From Alistipes sp. CHKCI003 (GTDB lineage: Bacteria; Bacteroidota; Bacteroidia; Bacteroidales; Rikenellaceae), in contig NZ_FCNT01000052.1 of the NCBI RefSeq assembly GCF_900021155.1, forward strand, positions 62,001 to 126,000: 64,000 nucleotides of DNA. The letters are read 5' to 3'. The notes beneath the pieces are model-generated. The model ran no database searches. It was given only the letters and a program-made list of their open reading frames with translations, and was not told the origin of the DNA. Below, in pieces: positions 2,988 to 48,665 of the stretch; the first letter of the stretch is position 1, and the number at the start of each line of letters is the position of its first letter. The position numbers and the translations under genes were made by a program.

Positions 2988-4555
2988 CGGTCGGCGGAGG
3001 CGGAGCGTCCGTATCTGCGCTCGTTTACGTATATCTTGCAAAGCCGCGAGGGAGCAGGGGGGAGGATACGGGCGTTTGCGGTATTTTTTCACTCTTCTCC
3101 GGGCCGTACTGCATACGTTTTCCGAGGTTTTGTCGGCGAATGTTCCGTCACCGGAGGGGCCGACCGCAATGGGCCGATTTTCTGCGGACATCGTTCTGCC
3201 CGCATGCTCTTGCCGGCCGGGCGGGAACGGCTGGCTTTCTGTCCGTTTTCGGCGGTAGTGCGGACAGGTGAGGCGGAGGGCGGTGGATGGAGGGACGTGG
3301 CACCCTGTAACGTGGTGCATAGACCGGTTCTCGGAAAGGGGCGCAGATGAGGCGGAGCTGCGGAATCCGTCCGCGAACGAAATCGCCTTTGACGTCGGAC
3401 GGGGAGGTGTCGGAAGACGTTTTCACCTGCGGTTCTCTTGAACTCGTGCAGGCTGCCTCCCAAGCCGCGTCCCTGCTTTTTCGCCGACGACGGATGATCC
3501 TGCACCTGTTTTTGACGCTGCGAATGAAACGGCCCGTCGCTCATGCCGTCGCCCTTCTCGTGCTTTCAGAGGATATGCGGCGAATCGCCGAGGGTGCTTT
3601 GCTGCGAGAGGATGGAATGAATCCGTGATCGGACGATCGCATTGCTTATCTTTCGCATATTCCCGATGACCGGTGGCCGGGAAATGACGGTATTGCGGTC
3701 GTAACTCCGAATATTTTCATTTATGAAGAAGTCATGGAGCGCATATCGACCGGATCCACGAAAAAGGTACGAAATCATGATCGCTCTGAGGAGTGATATG
3801 CGCGGTATCGCCGACGTAGCCCGCCGCATGCAGAAATACCTGACCCAAGGAGATGGCATGAAAACTTACGGCGTGCAGCTGCGCATCGACGGCGGTTATG
3901 GTCGTGCGCAGGATAGCTGGGGCGGGGAATATGCGGACAGAGAATCGCAACCGCACGTAAAGATCCGAGCTATGATACAGATTATGAGTGGATACCGCCC
4001 CCCCCCTCGCCGGGTAGACGATGCCGTCGTTGGGATCGGTCTGTGCAGTCAGGTTATGTTTGCGGCCGATGAAGAAACGGTACGACCTGTTGAATGTCCG
4101 CGAAGATGATCCGCAGGCATCGCTCGATAGCGGTCCGTCGGTTCATGGCGTCGTCAGAAAAGGCGTTATTACCCATACGGAGGCAGGCGATTCGTTTTTC
4201 GAAAAGCGCTCCTGAAGCGCAGGGACCGGATCTTCGGAGCTCCGGACTATCGCATGACGGGTCGAGCCGACACCGGATCGCAGCGTCTCATGTCTGTAGG
4301 TTGCGGACGGCGCCTTGCGGGCAGAGGACTATGCCGCAGACGATGTGCGGAATTTCGTTCGGGAAGCGGAAAGATTTCAGCACTCGTGCGATATCGAGTG
4401 TGCCTGTAATGAGGCGGAGCAGGGGATTTGCCCGATACGTCCCCCCCCCTCCGTGTTGCGCCTTCCGAGAATTGCCTGTTCGGAAAAGAGCTCGTAAAAC
4501 GAGCGGTATGAATATGAAAAAAGGAGCTATAATTTTTTATAGCCCCCTCTCTCTG
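2988..4555. other. gene-poor stretch with coding-like remnants
   Basis: No convincing intact gene in ~1.57 kb. The part 3723-4215 (+) reads like decayed coding sequence: a short frame from 3723 (MKKSWSAYRPDP...) breaks near 3960, where another frame reads KDPSYDTDYEWIPP, and a third short frame opens at 4069 (MKKRYDLLNVREDDPQ, ending 4215). I recognise none of them. C-tracts of 8-9 bases occur at about 3999-4006 and 4441-4449. Confidence 0.4.
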
Positions 4556-4630
4556 TCGGGGAGACTGGATTCGAACCAGCGACCTCCAACTCCCGAAGCT
4601 GGCGCGCTAACCGGACTGCGCTACACCCCG
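4556..4630 (-). tRNA. tRNA-Pro (anticodon CGG)
   Basis: Cloverleaf read by eye on the minus strand: acceptor CGGGGTG pairs with CTCCCCG (one T-T mismatch), D stem GCGC/GCGC, anticodon stem CCAGC/GTTGG with loop TTCGGGA (anticodon CGG, reads CCG), and T arm CTGGTTCGAATCCAG. No CCA is encoded. It lies 20 bp downstream of a second tRNA-Pro. Confidence 0.92.
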
Positions 4631-4650
4631 AACGATATTTTTCCGACGAG

Positions 4651-4725
4651 TCGGGGTAGCGGGATTCGAACCCACGACCCCCTGCTCCCAAAGCAGGTGC
4701 GCTAACCGGACTGCGCTACACCCCG
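4651..4725 (-). tRNA. tRNA-Pro (anticodon TGG)
   Basis: Minus-strand cloverleaf: acceptor CGGGGTG with a matching 3' strand, D stem GCGC/GCGC, anticodon stem CCTGC/GCAGG with loop TTTGGGA (anticodon TGG, reads CCA and probably other CCN codons), and T arm GTGGGTTCGAATCCCGC. No encoded CCA. First gene of a two-tRNA unit; its 5' half is nearly identical to the following tRNA-Pro(CGG), suggesting tandem duplication. Confidence 0.93.
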
Positions 4726-5430: not shown

Positions 5431-6066
5431 TCAGCCGGGCAGGAGGTCGTCGAACAGATGGCGGAAGTCTTCGCGCGGCGCAGGCATGTAGACGTCGAAG
5501 CCCAGATCGCGGGCTGCGTTCACGTTTTTCCGTCCGTCGTCGATGAAAAGCGTCTCGTGCGGAACGAGGCCGCTGTCGGCGATCATCGCCCGGAAGATCT
5601 CGGGCGAGGGCTTGAGCAGGTGCATTTCGTAGGAGACGTAGAGTTTGTCGAAATAATCGTTCACGGTGCGTCCGTCGGCCGTGAAGCAGCAGTCGACGAT
5701 GTAGGGCATCACCAACGGATTGTTGTTCGTGAGCATGTAGAGTTTCAGCCCCCGTTCGCGCAGGCGGGCCAGCATCCGCAGTTTGTAGACGGGTATGCCG
5801 ACGATGAACGAGCGGTAGGCGTCGGCGATCTGCCGGTCGGTTGCTTCGCTGCGGCCCGAAATGCGCCGTATTTCGTCGCAGGCTTCGTGGGACGTGAGGT
5901 CGCCGCGCTCCAGCTTTTCGAAGACTTCGGCCGGGTAGTAGGGGTCGATCAGATCGGCGATCCGGGGCATGCCCAGAGCGCGGAACGAGGCTCGGCAGCG
6001 TTCGATGTCGAGGTCGGCCAGTACGCCGCCGAGGTCGAATACGATATTTTGAATGGTAGCGTTCAT
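5431..6066 (-). CDS. HAD-family phosphatase (HAD-IA, YihX-like)
   Basis: A 211-residue HAD hydrolase. Motif I is FDLGGVL near residue 11, where the usual second Asp of DxD is Gly, as in the YihX-like branch (FDLGNV). Motif II appears as YMLTNNN, motif III as the Lys in LLKPSPEIF, and motif IV as LFIDDGRKN. A small phosphorylated metabolite or sugar phosphate is the likely substrate; nothing identifies which one. Its start lies 4 bp after the stop of the upstream SDR gene, making it the last gene of the four-gene leftward operon with the steroid-type reductases. A link to steroid chemistry is by position only. Confidence 0.85.
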   Translation of the reverse strand: MNATIQNIVFDLGGVLADLDIERCRASFRALGMPRIADLIDPYYPAEVFEKLERGDLTSHEACDEIRRISGRSEATDRQIADAYRSFIVGIPVYKLRMLARLRERGLKLYMLTNNNPLVMPYIVDCCFTADGRTVNDYFDKLYVSYEMHLLKPSPEIFRAMIADSGLVPHETLFIDDGRKNVNAARDLGFDVYMPAPREDFRHLFDDLLPG

Positions 6067-6070
6067 GTCG

Positions 6071-7315
6071 TCATTTTTGAAATTTCATGGTATGGCGCCG
6101 CAGCGGCCGCAGAGCTCCCGTCGGGAGCAGTTTGCAGAGGGGTATCCAAATCCTGTTCCACCAGTCGGGCACGATGCACCTCCGTCCCCGGAACAGAGCC
6201 CGCAGCCCCCGGCGGGCGCAGCTCTCGGCCGAGATCAGCACTCCGAGCCGGAGCCCGATCCGCTGCCAGCGGGGCGGCAGCCCGTAGAGGTCGGTCGCCA
6301 CCCCGGCGGGGCAGACGGCCGTAACGCGGATGCCGTGTTCGCGCACCTCTCGGGCGAAAGCCACCGAGAAACTGCGCAGATAGGCTTTGCTGGCGCTGTA
6401 GAGCGAGAGCCCCGGGAAAGGCATCCACAGCGAGAAGGAGGACATGTTGAGGATGTACCCTCCGCGGCCGCGCCGCACCATGTCGGCTGCAAAGTGCCGG
6501 CAGTTGAGCGTGGCGGTGAGGTCGTGCAGCAGGATGATGCGGGCGATCCGCCGGTCGGGCGTTGCGAGCAGGTCGCAGAAGGAGAAGATTCCCGCGTTGT
6601 TGATGAGTACGTCGACGCCGATTCCCTGCGACCGCACCCATGCGAAGAGCTCGTCGGATGCCTCCTCGCGTGCGAGGTCGATCGCCAGCGTGCGGATGTC
6701 GAGCGAAGGGTGGGAGACGCGCAGTTCATCTGCGGCCCGGACGATGTGCTCCGGCGCGAGCCCCGCGAGGACGAGATTGTAGCCCCGGTCGGCCAATTGT
6801 TCGGCATATCGGCGGCCGATACCGGTGCCGGCGCCCGTAATGAGGGCCCATGGCGTGTCCTGCGGCACTTCGCCGCCTCCGGGGTTCGGGCGCTTCGGAC
6901 GCTTCGGACGGTCGGCCGCATCCCCGCATGCGGCCGGCGTGCGGTTCGCCGTTTCCTGAGCGGAAGTATCCGTCTGTGCTCCGGTCCCTGCCTCCGGCGT
7001 GTCGGGGCGGGCGGTCGGTTGCGCGTCCGTCGGTCGGTCTGCCGGTGCGTGCGTCGTGTCGCCGGGCCGTTCGCCGGTCGGCTTGTCGGCATGCGGCGTC
7101 ATGCTGCCGGGCTGCTTGTCTGCCGGCGTGTGCGTCGTGTCGCCGGGCCGTTCGCCGGTCGGCTTGTCGGCATGCGGCGTCATGCTGCCGGGTTGCTTGT
7201 CTGCCGGCGTGTGCGTCGTGTCGCCGGGCCGTTCGCCGGTCGGTCTCGTACCCTTTTCAGACTGCTCCGGCTTGCGGGTGCCGGCGACGCTTCGTTTCGT
7301 TTCGGTCGTCTCCAT
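6071..7315 (-). CDS. short-chain dehydrogenase (hydroxysteroid dehydrogenase-like) with repeat-bearing N-terminus
   Basis: A 414-residue protein. Residues 1-155 are low-complexity (Pro, Thr, Ala, Gly, Asp) and include a 27-residue tandem repeat beginning PTGERPGDTTH at residues 25, 52 and 79. The classical SDR domain starts near residue 156: TGAGTGIG (about 160-167, NAD(P) binding), NNAG (239-242) and the catalytic Ser293, Tyr306 and Lys310 (YSASK). The gene begins 1 bp before the end of coupling distance to the flavoprotein stop and is followed by the HAD gene. By context it would oxidise or reduce a hydroxyl, for example C3 of a steroid or bile acid, beside 5-alpha and 5-beta reductase-type partners (inference). 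The N-terminal extension is odd: SDRs are usually ~250-280 residues, and an internal start just before the domain is possible. Confidence 0.8.
   Translation of the reverse strand: METTETKRSVAGTRKPEQSEKGTRPTGERPGDTTHTPADKQPGSMTPHADKPTGERPGDTTHTPADKQPGSMTPHADKPTGERPGDTTHAPADRPTDAQPTARPDTPEAGTGAQTDTSAQETANRTPAACGDAADRPKRPKRPNPGGGEVPQDTPWALITGAGTGIGRRYAEQLADRGYNLVLAGLAPEHIVRAADELRVSHPSLDIRTLAIDLAREEASDELFAWVRSQGIGVDVLINNAGIFSFCDLLATPDRRIARIILLHDLTATLNCRHFAADMVRRGRGGYILNMSSFSLWMPFPGLSLYSASKAYLRSFSVAFAREVREHGIRVTAVCPAGVATDLYGLPPRWQRIGLRLGVLISAESCARRGLRALFRGRRCIVPDWWNRIWIPLCKLLPTGALRPLRRHTMKFQK
7037..7243 (-). repeat. 81-bp coding tandem repeat, about 2.5 copies
   Basis: In-frame direct repeat within the 5' part of the SDR gene, encoding a 27-residue unit (PTGERPGDTTHTPADKQPGS... 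) twice in full and once partly. Copies are nearly identical at DNA level, so the copy number may vary by slippage. Confidence 0.85.
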
Positions 7316-7316
7316 C

Positions 7317-8528
7317 TCAGGGCAGTTCGGCGAGTTCTTTGCGGATTTTGGCCGGCAGGTCGGGGCAGTGCTTGCAGCACTTCATGTCCACGGAGTACAT
7401 GCGGGCGATGCAGTAGTTGCGGTGGTCGCACTCGCTGCGCGTCTCGGCGTCGCCTTCGCGGAGTTTGCGCACGAAGGCGGGGTCGTTCACGAGTGCACGG
7501 GCCATTTGCACCAGTTCGAATCCGGCGTCCAGCGCACGGTCGATCCCCTTGCGGCTGACCAGTCCGCCCACGTAGACCAGCGGACATTTCAGCTCGGCGC
7601 GGAATTTCGCGGCGTCCTCCAGAAAATAGCACTCCTCGAACGGGAACTGCCGGATCATGTAGGGGCCGCACCAGCGGATGAAGCAGCGGAGCCAGAGCGG
7701 CGAGTAGTAGCTCATGGTGTAGATCGGGATCAGCCCCCGCATGACCGCCATCGGCGCTTTCGAGACGAAGCCGCCCGAGAGGACGATCCCGTCGACGCCG
7801 AAGCGTTCGATCTCCCGGGCGATTTCGAGACTTTCGGGGATCTCGATGCCGCCCCGGAACCCGTCGTACATGTTGTGTTTCACGAGTACGGCCGTGCGCG
7901 TCTGCGCTGCGGCCTCCATCACCTCCGTGAGGCACATCCGAAGGAAGCGCATCCGGTTTTCGAGCGATCCGCCGTATTCGTCGCGGCGGCGGTTGGTGTA
8001 GGGCGAGAGGAACTGCGAGATCAGATAGCCGTGGCCGGCGTGGACCTCCACGCTGTCGAATCCGGCGTCGTGGGCCGTGCGCACGGCGCGTCCGAAGTCT
8101 TTGGCCACGTCGGCGATCTCGCTGCGCCGCATGCCCCGCACGGGGGTGTAGGCATAAAGGTTGAAACCCGTCGAGGCGCCGATCGGGATCTGTCCGGCGG
8201 TGGAGTAGTGGGTCATGTTGCCGCAGTGGCCGATCTGGATGCCGGCGGCCGCGCCCTCGGCATGCACGGCGTCGGTGATGTCGCGCAGCGCCGGCACGAT
8301 CCGGGGCCGGAGCCAGAGTTGTTTGCGGAACGACAGTCCGCTGCGGCTGACGGCGGCATAGGCCAGCGTCGTCATGCCGACGCCGCCGCGCGCCACGCTC
8401 ACGTGGTAATCCTTGAGCTGCTGCGTGGGGCCGAAATCCTTGCCCATGGATTCGAAAGCCGCCGAACGGATCGTCCGGTTGCGCAGCAGGACGGGGCCGA
8501 GCTGATAGGGGGTGAAGAGATTCGACAT
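7317..8528 (-). CDS. NADH:flavin oxidoreductase, old yellow enzyme family (candidate steroid ene-reductase)
   Basis: A 403-residue single-domain FMN TIM barrel. Visible family features: N-terminal LFTPYQLGPVLLRNR, the substrate/FMN region GIQIGHCGNM, VEVHAGHGYLISQFLSPYTN followed by NRRRDEYGGSLENR, and YVGGLVSRKGI near the phosphate site. The C-terminus has a cysteine-rich tail (CDHRNYC...CCKHC). It reduces activated C=C bonds with NAD(P)H. It lacks the C-terminal Fe-S/FAD domains of BaiCD/2,4-dienoyl-CoA reductases. It starts 3 bp after the 5-alpha-reductase-family gene and ends 1 bp before the SDR gene. In known isoallo-bile-acid clusters of gut Bacteroidota a flavoprotein of this superfamily acts as 5-beta-reductase; that role is inferred here from context. 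Confidence 0.88.
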   Translation of the reverse strand: MSNLFTPYQLGPVLLRNRTIRSAAFESMGKDFGPTQQLKDYHVSVARGGVGMTTLAYAAVSRSGLSFRKQLWLRPRIVPALRDITDAVHAEGAAAGIQIGHCGNMTHYSTAGQIPIGASTGFNLYAYTPVRGMRRSEIADVAKDFGRAVRTAHDAGFDSVEVHAGHGYLISQFLSPYTNRRRDEYGGSLENRMRFLRMCLTEVMEAAAQTRTAVLVKHNMYDGFRGGIEIPESLEIAREIERFGVDGIVLSGGFVSKAPMAVMRGLIPIYTMSYYSPLWLRCFIRWCGPYMIRQFPFEECYFLEDAAKFRAELKCPLVYVGGLVSRKGIDRALDAGFELVQMARALVNDPAFVRKLREGDAETRSECDHRNYCIARMYSVDMKCCKHCPDLPAKIRKELAELP

Positions 8529-8531
8529 GGA

Positions 8532-9293
8532 TCAGTATATGAACGGTATGATTCTTTTGCGTTTGAGGACCGTGAATTCCTCGCCGAATTCGGCCGTATA
8601 GCGTTTGTAGAGCGAGGCGGAGCGGGGCGCGAGGTTGGCGAAGGTCCACCACACGAACACCGCGCCGGCCCACGACCACGAGGCGACGGCGAAACCCGTC
8701 CACTCGGTCAGCTCGCCGAAGTAGTTGGCCGAGCTGACGTAGCGGAACATGCCGCCGCGCGGGATGTAGTGGCGCGTGTCGCCCTCCTTGCGCAGGCCGC
8801 GTATGATGGCGTCCGAGCGGCGGTTGACGTACATGCCCGCGAAGAAGATCGCAGCACCGATGTAGATATAAGGCCGGGCGAACCACCCTTCGTAGTAGTC
8901 GGCCGGCGAGACGAAGAAGATCCAGCCTCCCTGCATCAGAGCGTTGAGCGTGTTGAAGAGCATGCCCATCGCGACGATTCCGAAGGGCATTTTCGAGCGG
9001 CCCCGCAGCCGGAGCGGAAAGATGAAGGCGCGGTAGAGGTAGTGGCTCTGGAACATCAGGAAGAGTACGAGCGGTGCGGCCTGCCACGTGCGGTCCGAGA
9101 GGAGCCAGAGGATCGTCATGGCGACGAAGACGGGCGCCTCCATCAGCATCCAGCCGAGCTTGTTGGAGACGGGGAAGCCGTAGCGGCGGTCAAACAGGTA
9201 GCCGTAGCCCGCTTCGAAGAAGTGGAGGGCGACGTATACGACCAGTGCGAGCGCCGCCATCGCGATGAGGAAAATATCGAAGGTCTCTGTCAT
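8532..9293 (-). CDS. 3-oxo-5-alpha-steroid 4-dehydrogenase family membrane protein (steroid 5-alpha-reductase)
   Basis: A 253-residue polytopic membrane protein with about six hydrophobic segments. The C-terminal half matches the steroid 5-alpha-reductase family: PRGGMFRYVSSANYFGEL, EWTGFAVASWS, the helix ending TFANLAPRS, and the closing RKRIIPFIY. This family reduces the delta-4 bond of 3-oxo-steroids with NADPH. I chose the ATG at 9293 because a promoter -7 box lies at 9321-9328, which excludes the upstream in-frame ATG at 9323. First gene of a tight operon followed at 3 bp by an OYE flavoprotein, then an SDR and a HAD phosphatase. Known bacterial members convert 3-oxo-delta-4 bile acids or steroids to the 5-alpha (allo) form; actual substrate untested. 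Confidence 0.85.
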   Translation of the reverse strand: MTETFDIFLIAMAALALVVYVALHFFEAGYGYLFDRRYGFPVSNKLGWMLMEAPVFVAMTILWLLSDRTWQAAPLVLFLMFQSHYLYRAFIFPLRLRGRSKMPFGIVAMGMLFNTLNALMQGGWIFFVSPADYYEGWFARPYIYIGAAIFFAGMYVNRRSDAIIRGLRKEGDTRHYIPRGGMFRYVSSANYFGELTEWTGFAVASWSWAGAVFVWWTFANLAPRSASLYKRYTAEFGEEFTVLKRKRIIPFIY

Positions 9294-9320
9294 GTTGCGA
9301 TTGGTGTTCGGTAAAACACA

Positions 9321-9352
9321 CAAAGGTATGAAAAATCGGACGCAAAACGAAA
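9321..9352 (-). promoter_or_regulatory. promoter of the steroid-type operon
   Basis: Minus strand TTTC, 20-bp spacer, TACCTTTG. The -7 box is a full match, the -33 box has one mismatch. Places the transcript start just upstream of the ATG at 9293. Confidence 0.6.
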
Positions 9353-9884: not shown

Positions 9885-11300
9885 TCAATGGGTGAAGACC
9901 CGTCCCAGCTGCTTCTCCTGCTTTTCGTAGGCGATGCGCGACGTGGTGGGGTATTCCAGCTTTTCGAATTCGGCGACGGCGTTGCGGATGTCGCCCAACA
10001 GCATGTCGGCCATGTCGCGCGACATGCCCTGACGCACCACGATACGCATGACCACCAGATCCTCGATGTTCTTGGGCATCGTGTAGGCCGGGACCATCCA
10101 GCCGCTCTGTTGCAGTTTGGCCTGCAGGTCGTAGAGGGTCCACTTCGCCTTCTTGTCGTAATCGGGCTTCATGTACCAGATGAAGAGCGGGTTGACCAGC
10201 TTGTCGGCGTAGTTCTCGAAACAGGGCATCTTGCCGATTTCGTCGTGGCAGTACTGCGCCACGTCCATCGAGTTCTGCTGCACCTCCTTGTAGCCTTCGA
10301 ATCCCAGCCGGATGAAGTTGTAGTACTGTCCGAGGATCTGCGCGGCGGGACGCGAGAAGTTGAGCCCTACCTGCGTGATGTTGGCGCCGAGGTAGTTGAC
10401 GCTGAACGACATTTCGTCGGGCAGGTATTTCTTGTCCTTCCATACGACCCATCCCAGACCCGGGTATACGAGACCGTACTTGTGGCCCGACGTGGAGATC
10501 GAGAGCACCCATTTGAGGCGGAAGTCCCATTTGACCTCGGGGTTGAGGAACGGGAGGATGAAACCGCCCGATGCGGCGTCCACGTGGATCGGAATTTCAT
10601 AGCCCGTCTGGGCGTTGTAGGCGTCGAGTTCCTTGTCCAGCGCTTCGATGTCGTCGTTGAGCCCCGTCCACGTAACGCCTGCGATCGGCACGATGCAGAT
10701 CGTGTTTTCGTCGCACATGTCGAGCGCCTGTTTCGGATCGAGCGTGATTCGGTCGAGCGTCAGAGGCACGGTGCGCAATTCGATCTGCCAGAGCTGGCAG
10801 AACTTCTCCCAAACCACCTGAAAACCGGCGCTCATCACCAGATTGGGTTTGTCGATGGGTTTGCCGGCGGCCTGCCGGCGGTGGCGCCAGCGAAGCCATG
10901 CGGCCACGCCGCCCAGCATGCAGGCTTCGGACGAGCCGATGCCCAGCGCGCCGGTTTTCCACTCGGCTTTTTCGGGCGTGTTCCACAGGTTGGCCATGAT
11001 GTTGATGCAGCGGCCGCACATCACGGCGACGCGCGGGTATTCCGTTTCGTCGATGTAGTTGACGTCGATGGCTTCGTTCATCAGGCGCGTGGCATAGTCG
11101 TCCATGTAGGTCGTTACGAACGTGGCGAGATTCAGCCGCGGCTGGGTCTGGGCATAGGTTTCGTCCTTGACCAGCTGGTAGGCGATCTCGGGTGCGGTCT
11201 TGTTTTTCGGGATGAACTCCGTCGGTGCGGGAGTGAGCATCTTTTTCGAGCCGAAGATAGCGGTCGTAACGTTCTCTCTGGTGTCGTTTTTTTGATCCAT
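9885..11300 (-). CDS. gadB: glutamate decarboxylase
   Basis: A 471-residue PLP-dependent decarboxylase (E. coli GadB has 466) converting glutamate to GABA plus CO2 and consuming a proton, commonly for acid resistance. The PLP lysine lies in STSGHKYGLVYPGLGW; further family features are IGSSEACMLGG, HVDAASGGF and the C-terminal VVRQGMSRD. The very C-terminus ends in GRVFTH; the His before last position resembles the autoinhibitory C-terminal tail of GadB. The start at 11300 (MDQKND) is preferred over an in-frame ATG at 11342 because GadB proteins begin close to this point and the intervening stretch is AT-rich leader. No gadC antiporter lies in the window. A strong palindromic terminator follows. 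Confidence 0.95.
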   Translation of the reverse strand: MDQKNDTRENVTTAIFGSKKMLTPAPTEFIPKNKTAPEIAYQLVKDETYAQTQPRLNLATFVTTYMDDYATRLMNEAIDVNYIDETEYPRVAVMCGRCINIMANLWNTPEKAEWKTGALGIGSSEACMLGGVAAWLRWRHRRQAAGKPIDKPNLVMSAGFQVVWEKFCQLWQIELRTVPLTLDRITLDPKQALDMCDENTICIVPIAGVTWTGLNDDIEALDKELDAYNAQTGYEIPIHVDAASGGFILPFLNPEVKWDFRLKWVLSISTSGHKYGLVYPGLGWVVWKDKKYLPDEMSFSVNYLGANITQVGLNFSRPAAQILGQYYNFIRLGFEGYKEVQQNSMDVAQYCHDEIGKMPCFENYADKLVNPLFIWYMKPDYDKKAKWTLYDLQAKLQQSGWMVPAYTMPKNIEDLVVMRIVVRQGMSRDMADMLLGDIRNAVAEFEKLEYPTTSRIAYEKQEKQLGRVFTH

Positions 11301-11428
11301 AACGAAAAAATAATTAAAGTTTACATCCTCTGTCGAATCCATAAACTGTGCCAGCGGACGGCATGCGGCGGAGAGCCCGGTCCGTGGAAAAATCGGAACG
11401 GAGCGTGGGAAAGTCCGAAAAAATTTTC

Positions 11429-47998: not shown

Positions 47999-48665
47999 TC
48001 TCCCGAACCCCCGGATGCCGGGCCGCACGCCGTATTGCGTTTCGGTCCTAATACCTCCGTCCGGTATGCCTTGCCGCCGTTCGTTCGCCCGCGTCCCGTG
48101 CACCGTCTCACGTATCGTGCTGAATGCCTCCGGTCGGTATGCCTTCCGCTGTCGGTTCTCCCGAGGCCCCGGGCGTCGGGCCGCACGCCGTATTGCGTTT
48201 CGGTCCGAATACCTCCGTCCGGTATGCCTTGCCGCCGTTCGTTCGCCCGCGTCCCGTGCACCGTTTCACGTATCGTGCTGAATGCCTCCGGCCGGTATGC
48301 CTTCCGGTGTCGGTTCTCCCGAGGCCCCGGGCGTCGGGCCGCACGCCGTATTGCGTTTCGGTCCGAATTCCTCCGTCCGGTATGCCTTGCCGCAGTTCGT
48401 TCGCCCGTGTCCCGTGCACCGTCTCACATATCGTGCTGAATGCCTTCGGCCGGTATGCCTTCCGGTGTCGGTTCTCCCGAGGCCCCGGATGCCGGGCCGC
48501 ACGCCGTATTGCGTTTCGGTCCGAATTCCTCCGTTCGGTATGCCTTGCCGCCGTTCGTTCGCCCGCGTCCCGTGCACCGTCTCACGTATCGTGCTGAATT
48601 CCTCCGTCCGGTATGCCTTCCGGTGTCGGTTCTCCCGAGGCCCCGGGCGTCGGGCCGTATGCCGC
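47999..48665. repeat. 158-bp tandem repeat, four full copies plus a partial
   Basis: The word tctcccg starts copies at exactly 47999, 48157, 48315, 48473 and 48631. Copies differ by scattered substitutions. Each unit contains two related halves (CCTCCGnCCGGTATGCCTT appears twice per unit) and the words TATTGCGTTTCGGTCC and GTTCGTTCGCCCG. The period is not a multiple of three, so it is not a protein repeat. Confidence 0.95.

Follow-up and report, generated by a model that had tools for sequence, protein, structure and literature searches.

Sato et al. 2021 and Li et al. 2021 are reportedly the primary papers on a Bacteroidota gene cluster that unites a steroid 5-alpha-reductase (5AR), a 5-beta-reductase (5BR), and a 3-beta-HSDH. 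The account of known systems given here draws on excerpts of articles cited by PMC accession and extends as far as those excerpts do. The 5AR gene of P. merdae shares a cluster with genes for an NADH:flavin oxidoreductase, hypothesized to act as the 5-beta-reductase, and for a predicted 3-beta-HSDH; disruption of 5AR prevents the formation of alloLCA derivatives (PMC10382948). Strains of P. merdae, Odoribacter laneus, and B. dorei convert 3-oxo-delta-4-LCA to isoalloLCA (PMC10382948), and the route is described as leading from 3-oxoLCA through 3-oxo-delta-4-LCA and 3-oxo-alloLCA to isoalloLCA (PMC10672800); the cluster is also known from PMC11271093 and PMC12697870. Reported effects of this end product are the inhibition of Gram-positive pathogens, among them C. 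difficile (PMC10382948), and the promotion of regulatory T cells (PMC11271093). In Firmicutes, BaiCD, BaiP, and BaiJ act on 3-oxo-delta-4 bile acids, with the 5-alpha step assigned to BaiP/BaiJ, which are described as distinct from the membrane-associated Bacteroidetes enzymes (PMC9645264).

Here we describe an operon in Alistipes sp. CHKCI003 that is probably an Alistipes copy of the Bacteroidota 5AR-5BR-3-beta-HSDH cluster, predicted to carry 3-oxo bile acids to the flat isoallo (5-alpha, 3-beta) form. It lies in the stretch of 64,000 nucleotides that we analyzed (the window; 61% G+C) from a genome of 2.87 Mb. Its four genes are all on the minus strand and run in the order 5AR, OYE, SDR, HAD (window coordinates):

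9294..9352, minus strand: leader with a presumed Bacteroidota-type -7 box; TACCTTTG starts 35 nt ahead of the ATG of 5AR
8532..9293, minus strand: 5AR, steroid 5-alpha-reductase family, 253 aa; PF02544, E 3.5e-40; membrane protein by homology
7317..8528, minus strand: OYE-type FMN oxidoreductase, 403 aa, candidate 5-beta-reductase/dehydrogenase (5BR); PF00724, E 3.5e-52
6071..7315, minus strand: SDR oxidoreductase, 414 aa, candidate 3-beta-HSDH; PF00106 adh_short, E 8.8e-38
7037..7243, minus strand: 81-bp (27-residue) tandem repeat within the SDR N-terminal extension; 2.6 copies, 97% matches
5431..6066, minus strand: HAD-IA hydrolase, 211 aa, final gene of the run; PF00702, E 3.3e-15

A sequence-only reading of the window had placed the three enzyme families in one tight leftward operon with gaps of 1-3 bp and a HAD gene after them. 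The Pfam matches and the common strand bear this out, as do the intergenic gaps calculated from the coordinates: 3 bp between 5AR and OYE, 1 bp between OYE and SDR, and 4 bp between SDR and HAD, so that the range of 1-3 bp holds for the three enzyme genes. We place the start of 5AR at the ATG at 9293; the mechanical ORF list begins it at a TTG at 9323. We take TACCTTTG in the leader to be a -7 box from its resemblance to the Bacteroidota consensus, and no -33 TTTG was seen at the usual spacing. The next gene upstream, on the same strand, encodes a pyridoxal-dependent decarboxylase (9885-11342; PF00282) that looks glutamate decarboxylase-like. Elsewhere, the window holds a gene for a radical SAM/SPASM protein (1914-2987) and two adjoining tRNA-Pro genes on the minus strand (4555-4725).

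Homology, conserved catalytic residues, and conserved gene order are described below; we infer the individual reactions of the operon, including the direction of the OYE step, the substrate, and the stereochemistry. As candidate 5BR, the OYE flavoprotein would use FMN to convert a 3-oxo-5-beta bile acid to the 3-oxo-delta-4 intermediate or the reverse. The NADPH-using 5AR would then transfer hydride to the alpha face of C5, with the C3 carbonyl polarized by E52 and Y85, yielding the 3-oxo-5-alpha (allo) acid, whose 3-oxo group the SDR would convert to 3-beta-hydroxy (isoallo). The genome also encodes one protein of the bile salt hydrolase/penicillin acylase family PF02275 (G000:C47:1361-2212, L112; E 1.6e-46). 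This lends weak support to a role in bile acid metabolism, because the family is not gut- or bile-specific and also matches 4 of 14 control genomes.

Judged by sequence, the 5AR protein is a relative of the solved steroid 5-alpha-reductases with the catalytic Glu/Tyr conserved, a kinship that the sequence-only reading had proposed. It scores 137.9 bits against PF02544 Steroid_dh (curated cut-off, 22.6), which places it within the family, and it matches three solved proteins: the steroid 5-alpha-reductase 7c83, presumably a proteobacterial enzyme (E 8.9e-45), human SRD5A2 (7bw1; E 5.3e-33), and, far more weakly, the very-long-chain enoyl-CoA reductase 22of (E 2.6e-6). Profile alignment sets E52 and Y85 at SRD5A2 E57 and Y91, and E52, Y85, R88, and N190 are kept in 81/81 sequences (the window and 80 named loci). 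In SRD5A2, E57Q reduces activity and Y91F essentially abolishes it (PMC7591894, excerpt). PF02544 is likewise not gut- or bile-specific, with matches in 3 of the 14 control genomes, two of them above the cut-off; Synechococcus is among the control genomes matching this family or PF02275. The best named 5AR loci among the matches listed, which possibly exclude records of the window's own genome, are 75-81% identical and belong to Alistipes, Millionella, and other Rikenellaceae. Identity falls to 56% for the Parabacteroides sp. 5AR P0325, the sole Parabacteroides-named 5AR among the matches listed, which here represents its genus in place of the P. merdae proteins.

Alternatively, the main substrates of these enzymes could be steroid hormones such as progesterone, testosterone, and cortisol, or dietary sterols, instead of bile acids. 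The closest solved relatives of 5AR are indeed steroid 5-alpha-reductases, the human enzyme included, and a 5-beta-reductase of Clostridium innocuum, which its authors compared with a homologous dienoyl-CoA reductase, reduces steroid hormones (PMC12238238, excerpt). However, the clustered families were described for bile acids in P. merdae (PMC10382948), and although sequence alone cannot separate the two kinds of substrate, we consider a chiefly hormonal role unlikely.

The second enzyme of the predicted isoallo-bile-acid operon is a clear OYE family member, scoring 178.2 bits against PF00724 Oxidored_FMN (cut-off, 27). Residues H163, H166, and Y168, as aligned to YqjM, are present in 72/72 sequences, and this His/His/Tyr set has active-site roles in OYE enzymes. 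Against the BaiCD model NF041087 the protein scores 168.6 bits, far below the equivalog cut-off of 825, and so lies outside that equivalog. Its C-terminal tail (7317-7430) carries three cysteines in 72/72 sequences and a fourth in 57/72, possibly an atypical iron-sulphur site, or what is left of one, in an OYE that has no FAD/NAD half.

Conservation of gene order in relatives sets the operon, as a unit, beyond chance. We searched 247 genomes of the host order with thresholds of E 1e-15 for 5AR, 1e-60 for OYE, and 1e-45 for SDR, and found 5AR in 51, OYE in 38, SDR in 29, and 5AR together with OYE in 37. Of the 37 genomes having both, 26 show OYE after 5AR on one strand and no more than 3 kb away, and in the remaining 11/37 the two are not within 3 kb; the full order 5AR-OYE-SDR occurs in 16 of the 247. 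These counts are lower bounds, given the unequal thresholds and the fragmentation of some genomes (G148 has its genes spread over several contigs). The link of SDR to 5AR and OYE is looser than that between 5AR and OYE, since SDR stands within 3 kb after OYE in 19 of the 29 SDR-bearing genomes. Within the genus, an SDR match at 1e-60, counted irrespective of gene order, is found in 53 of 61 sampled genomes, our own included.

A second set comprises 80 named loci, the best 80 of at least 578 confirmed when ranked by 5AR similarity, and hence rich in Alistipes. OYE is present in 76 of these and SDR in 71. OYE is missing in L073, L086, L097, and L110, and SDR is missing in the same four loci, in L034, L039, L066, and L070, all four of which reach a contig end, and in L093 (partial OYE match). 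The 5AR-OYE gap is mostly below 100 bp, with a maximum of 497, and in L080 the SDR lies 2.3 kb further on. Recurrence of the gene order among relatives makes a further copy of the known cluster likely. An entirely new pathway is rejected, both on this recurrence and on a cluster already in print (PMC10382948).

The looser attachment of SDR bears on another explanation, in which 5AR alone is a steroid enzyme and the other two proteins reduce unrelated enones and ketones, sharing the operon just for expression. Enzymes of the OYE and SDR families accept a wide range of substrates, and SDR adjoins OYE in 19/29 genomes having it. Yet the adjacency of 5AR and OYE in 26 genomes and again in 76/80 of the best loci points to a shared pathway, and we give this explanation a slim chance. 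That the operon serves to make or edit a membrane lipid of the bacterium, and not a host steroid, is scarcely credible: the enoyl-CoA reductase 22of does match 5AR weakly, but 7c83 surpasses it by about 38 orders of magnitude, and 5AR retains the E57/Y91 pair.

For the isoallo route that we favor, the SDR is the candidate for the last step. It belongs to the classical SDRs (PF00106, 130.2 bits; cut-off, 26.6) and carries the glycine-rich cofactor motif, NNAG, and Ser/Tyr/Lys, all motifs with established roles in this family. Matches to SDR folds cannot distinguish a 3-beta specificity from others. Ten PF00106 matches occur in the genome, and another of its SDRs could act as a 3-alpha-HSDH.

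The repeat-bearing tail of the SDR, whose translation is putative, is the one unusual feature of the operon. About 160 residues precede the cofactor motif, where about 16 are usual in homologues, and the repeat sits within this N-terminal extension, outside the catalytic core. Alistipes supplies the nearest homologues with a name, among them a 97% identical SDR (P0123, from an uncultured Alistipes sp.), and the 27-residue unit varies from 1 to 3 copies among near-identical homologues. One might speculate that the tail is translated as a flexible linker of variable copy number (1, 2, 3) that keeps the soluble SDR tethered to the flavoprotein and the membrane 5AR, setting isoallo output strain by strain, but we regard this as quite improbable. 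An internal SDR start at V150 (GTG) is judged unlikely; P0123, P0133, P0144, and P0145 have Ala there. The idea of a mobile or genome-wide element finds no support, in that the genome holds no long second copy of the 81-bp repeat and its other three matches span merely 16, 28, and 18 bases. A separate tandem repeat of 158 bp occupies 47999-48664 of the window (4.2 copies, 94% matches). Among relatives, open frames of 687 and 820 aa had hinted at giant SDRs, which we rejected for L121 and L123: the frame continues upstream across OYE, and the SDR proper starts where OYE stops, leaving 28 and 16 residues ahead of the core. In L122 the SDR open frame is 562 aa, and the core motif was without a match in 4 of 15 loci scanned (L119, L122, L124, L130).

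The HAD gene probably encodes a phosphatase that is co-transcribed and plays no role in the pathway. A HAD homologue is present in 13/80 named loci and lies within 200 bp after SDR in 11/80. Across the 247 genomes of the host order, 29 carry a close HAD homologue and 10 of these also carry 5AR; among those 10, HAD follows SDR in our own genome only. This check of position covers 10 of 33 HAD places and, for G105, one of two, the other being on a different contig from 5AR. Membership of HAD in the conserved cluster is thus unsupported across the host order. The sequence-only reading had also suggested that HAD and the repeat-bearing SDR may mark a variant. Weak support for this comes from the 11/80 loci with HAD after SDR, and the repeat lies outside the catalytic core; we regard the HAD gene and the SDR N-terminus as two minor lineage features.

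With an SDR match in 53/61 genomes of the genus and the full gene order in 71/80 named loci, the candidate cluster is widespread among Alistipes and related bacteria, and Alistipes is therefore to be counted among the candidate isoalloLCA producers. The discovery value is modest; the type of cluster is already known, and the Alistipes locus adds a member. Among the papers listed, our literature search, which left out Sato 2021 and Li 2021, found none on the Alistipes operon, and this is not proof of absence. The locus may also bear on annotation. In dairy-cow MAGs, the excerpted report states that no 3-beta-HSDH was found by KO annotation, though Alistipes is common there (PMC9750977). Three Alistipes loci from other dairy-cattle MAGs (L051, L053, L083) nevertheless carry 5AR-OYE-SDR, so that either this KO annotation overlooks the SDR or the protein is something other than a 3-beta-HSDH.

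Several described systems can be set beside this operon. The bacterial enzyme 7c83 shares full-length homology with the window 5AR, and the catalytic Glu/Tyr regions align. BaiCD has an OYE module in common with our flavoprotein, but the latter has 403 aa against the 642 positions of the BaiCD model and scores far under its cut-off. In a set of chicken isolates that includes Alistipes, 5AR was reported, as a single gene rather than a cluster, in all Bacteroidetes except two Odoribacter and one Parabacteroides distasonis (PMC6069880, excerpt); at locus L038, from chicken isolate An66, 5AR, OYE, SDR, and HAD stand in a row. The closest system is the P. merdae/Bacteroidota cluster, whose 5AR is described as similar to mammalian SRD5A1 and whose resemblance to this operon had been suggested from the outset. 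The resemblance holds, as 5AR, an NADH:flavin oxidoreductase, and an SDR are clustered here as described there (PMC10382948, excerpt). It rests on families, gene order, and the congener P0325. The same three families thus occur together in both, and unlike the described cluster, the operon of Alistipes sp. CHKCI003 has an SDR with a long repeat-bearing N-terminus and ends in a HAD gene.
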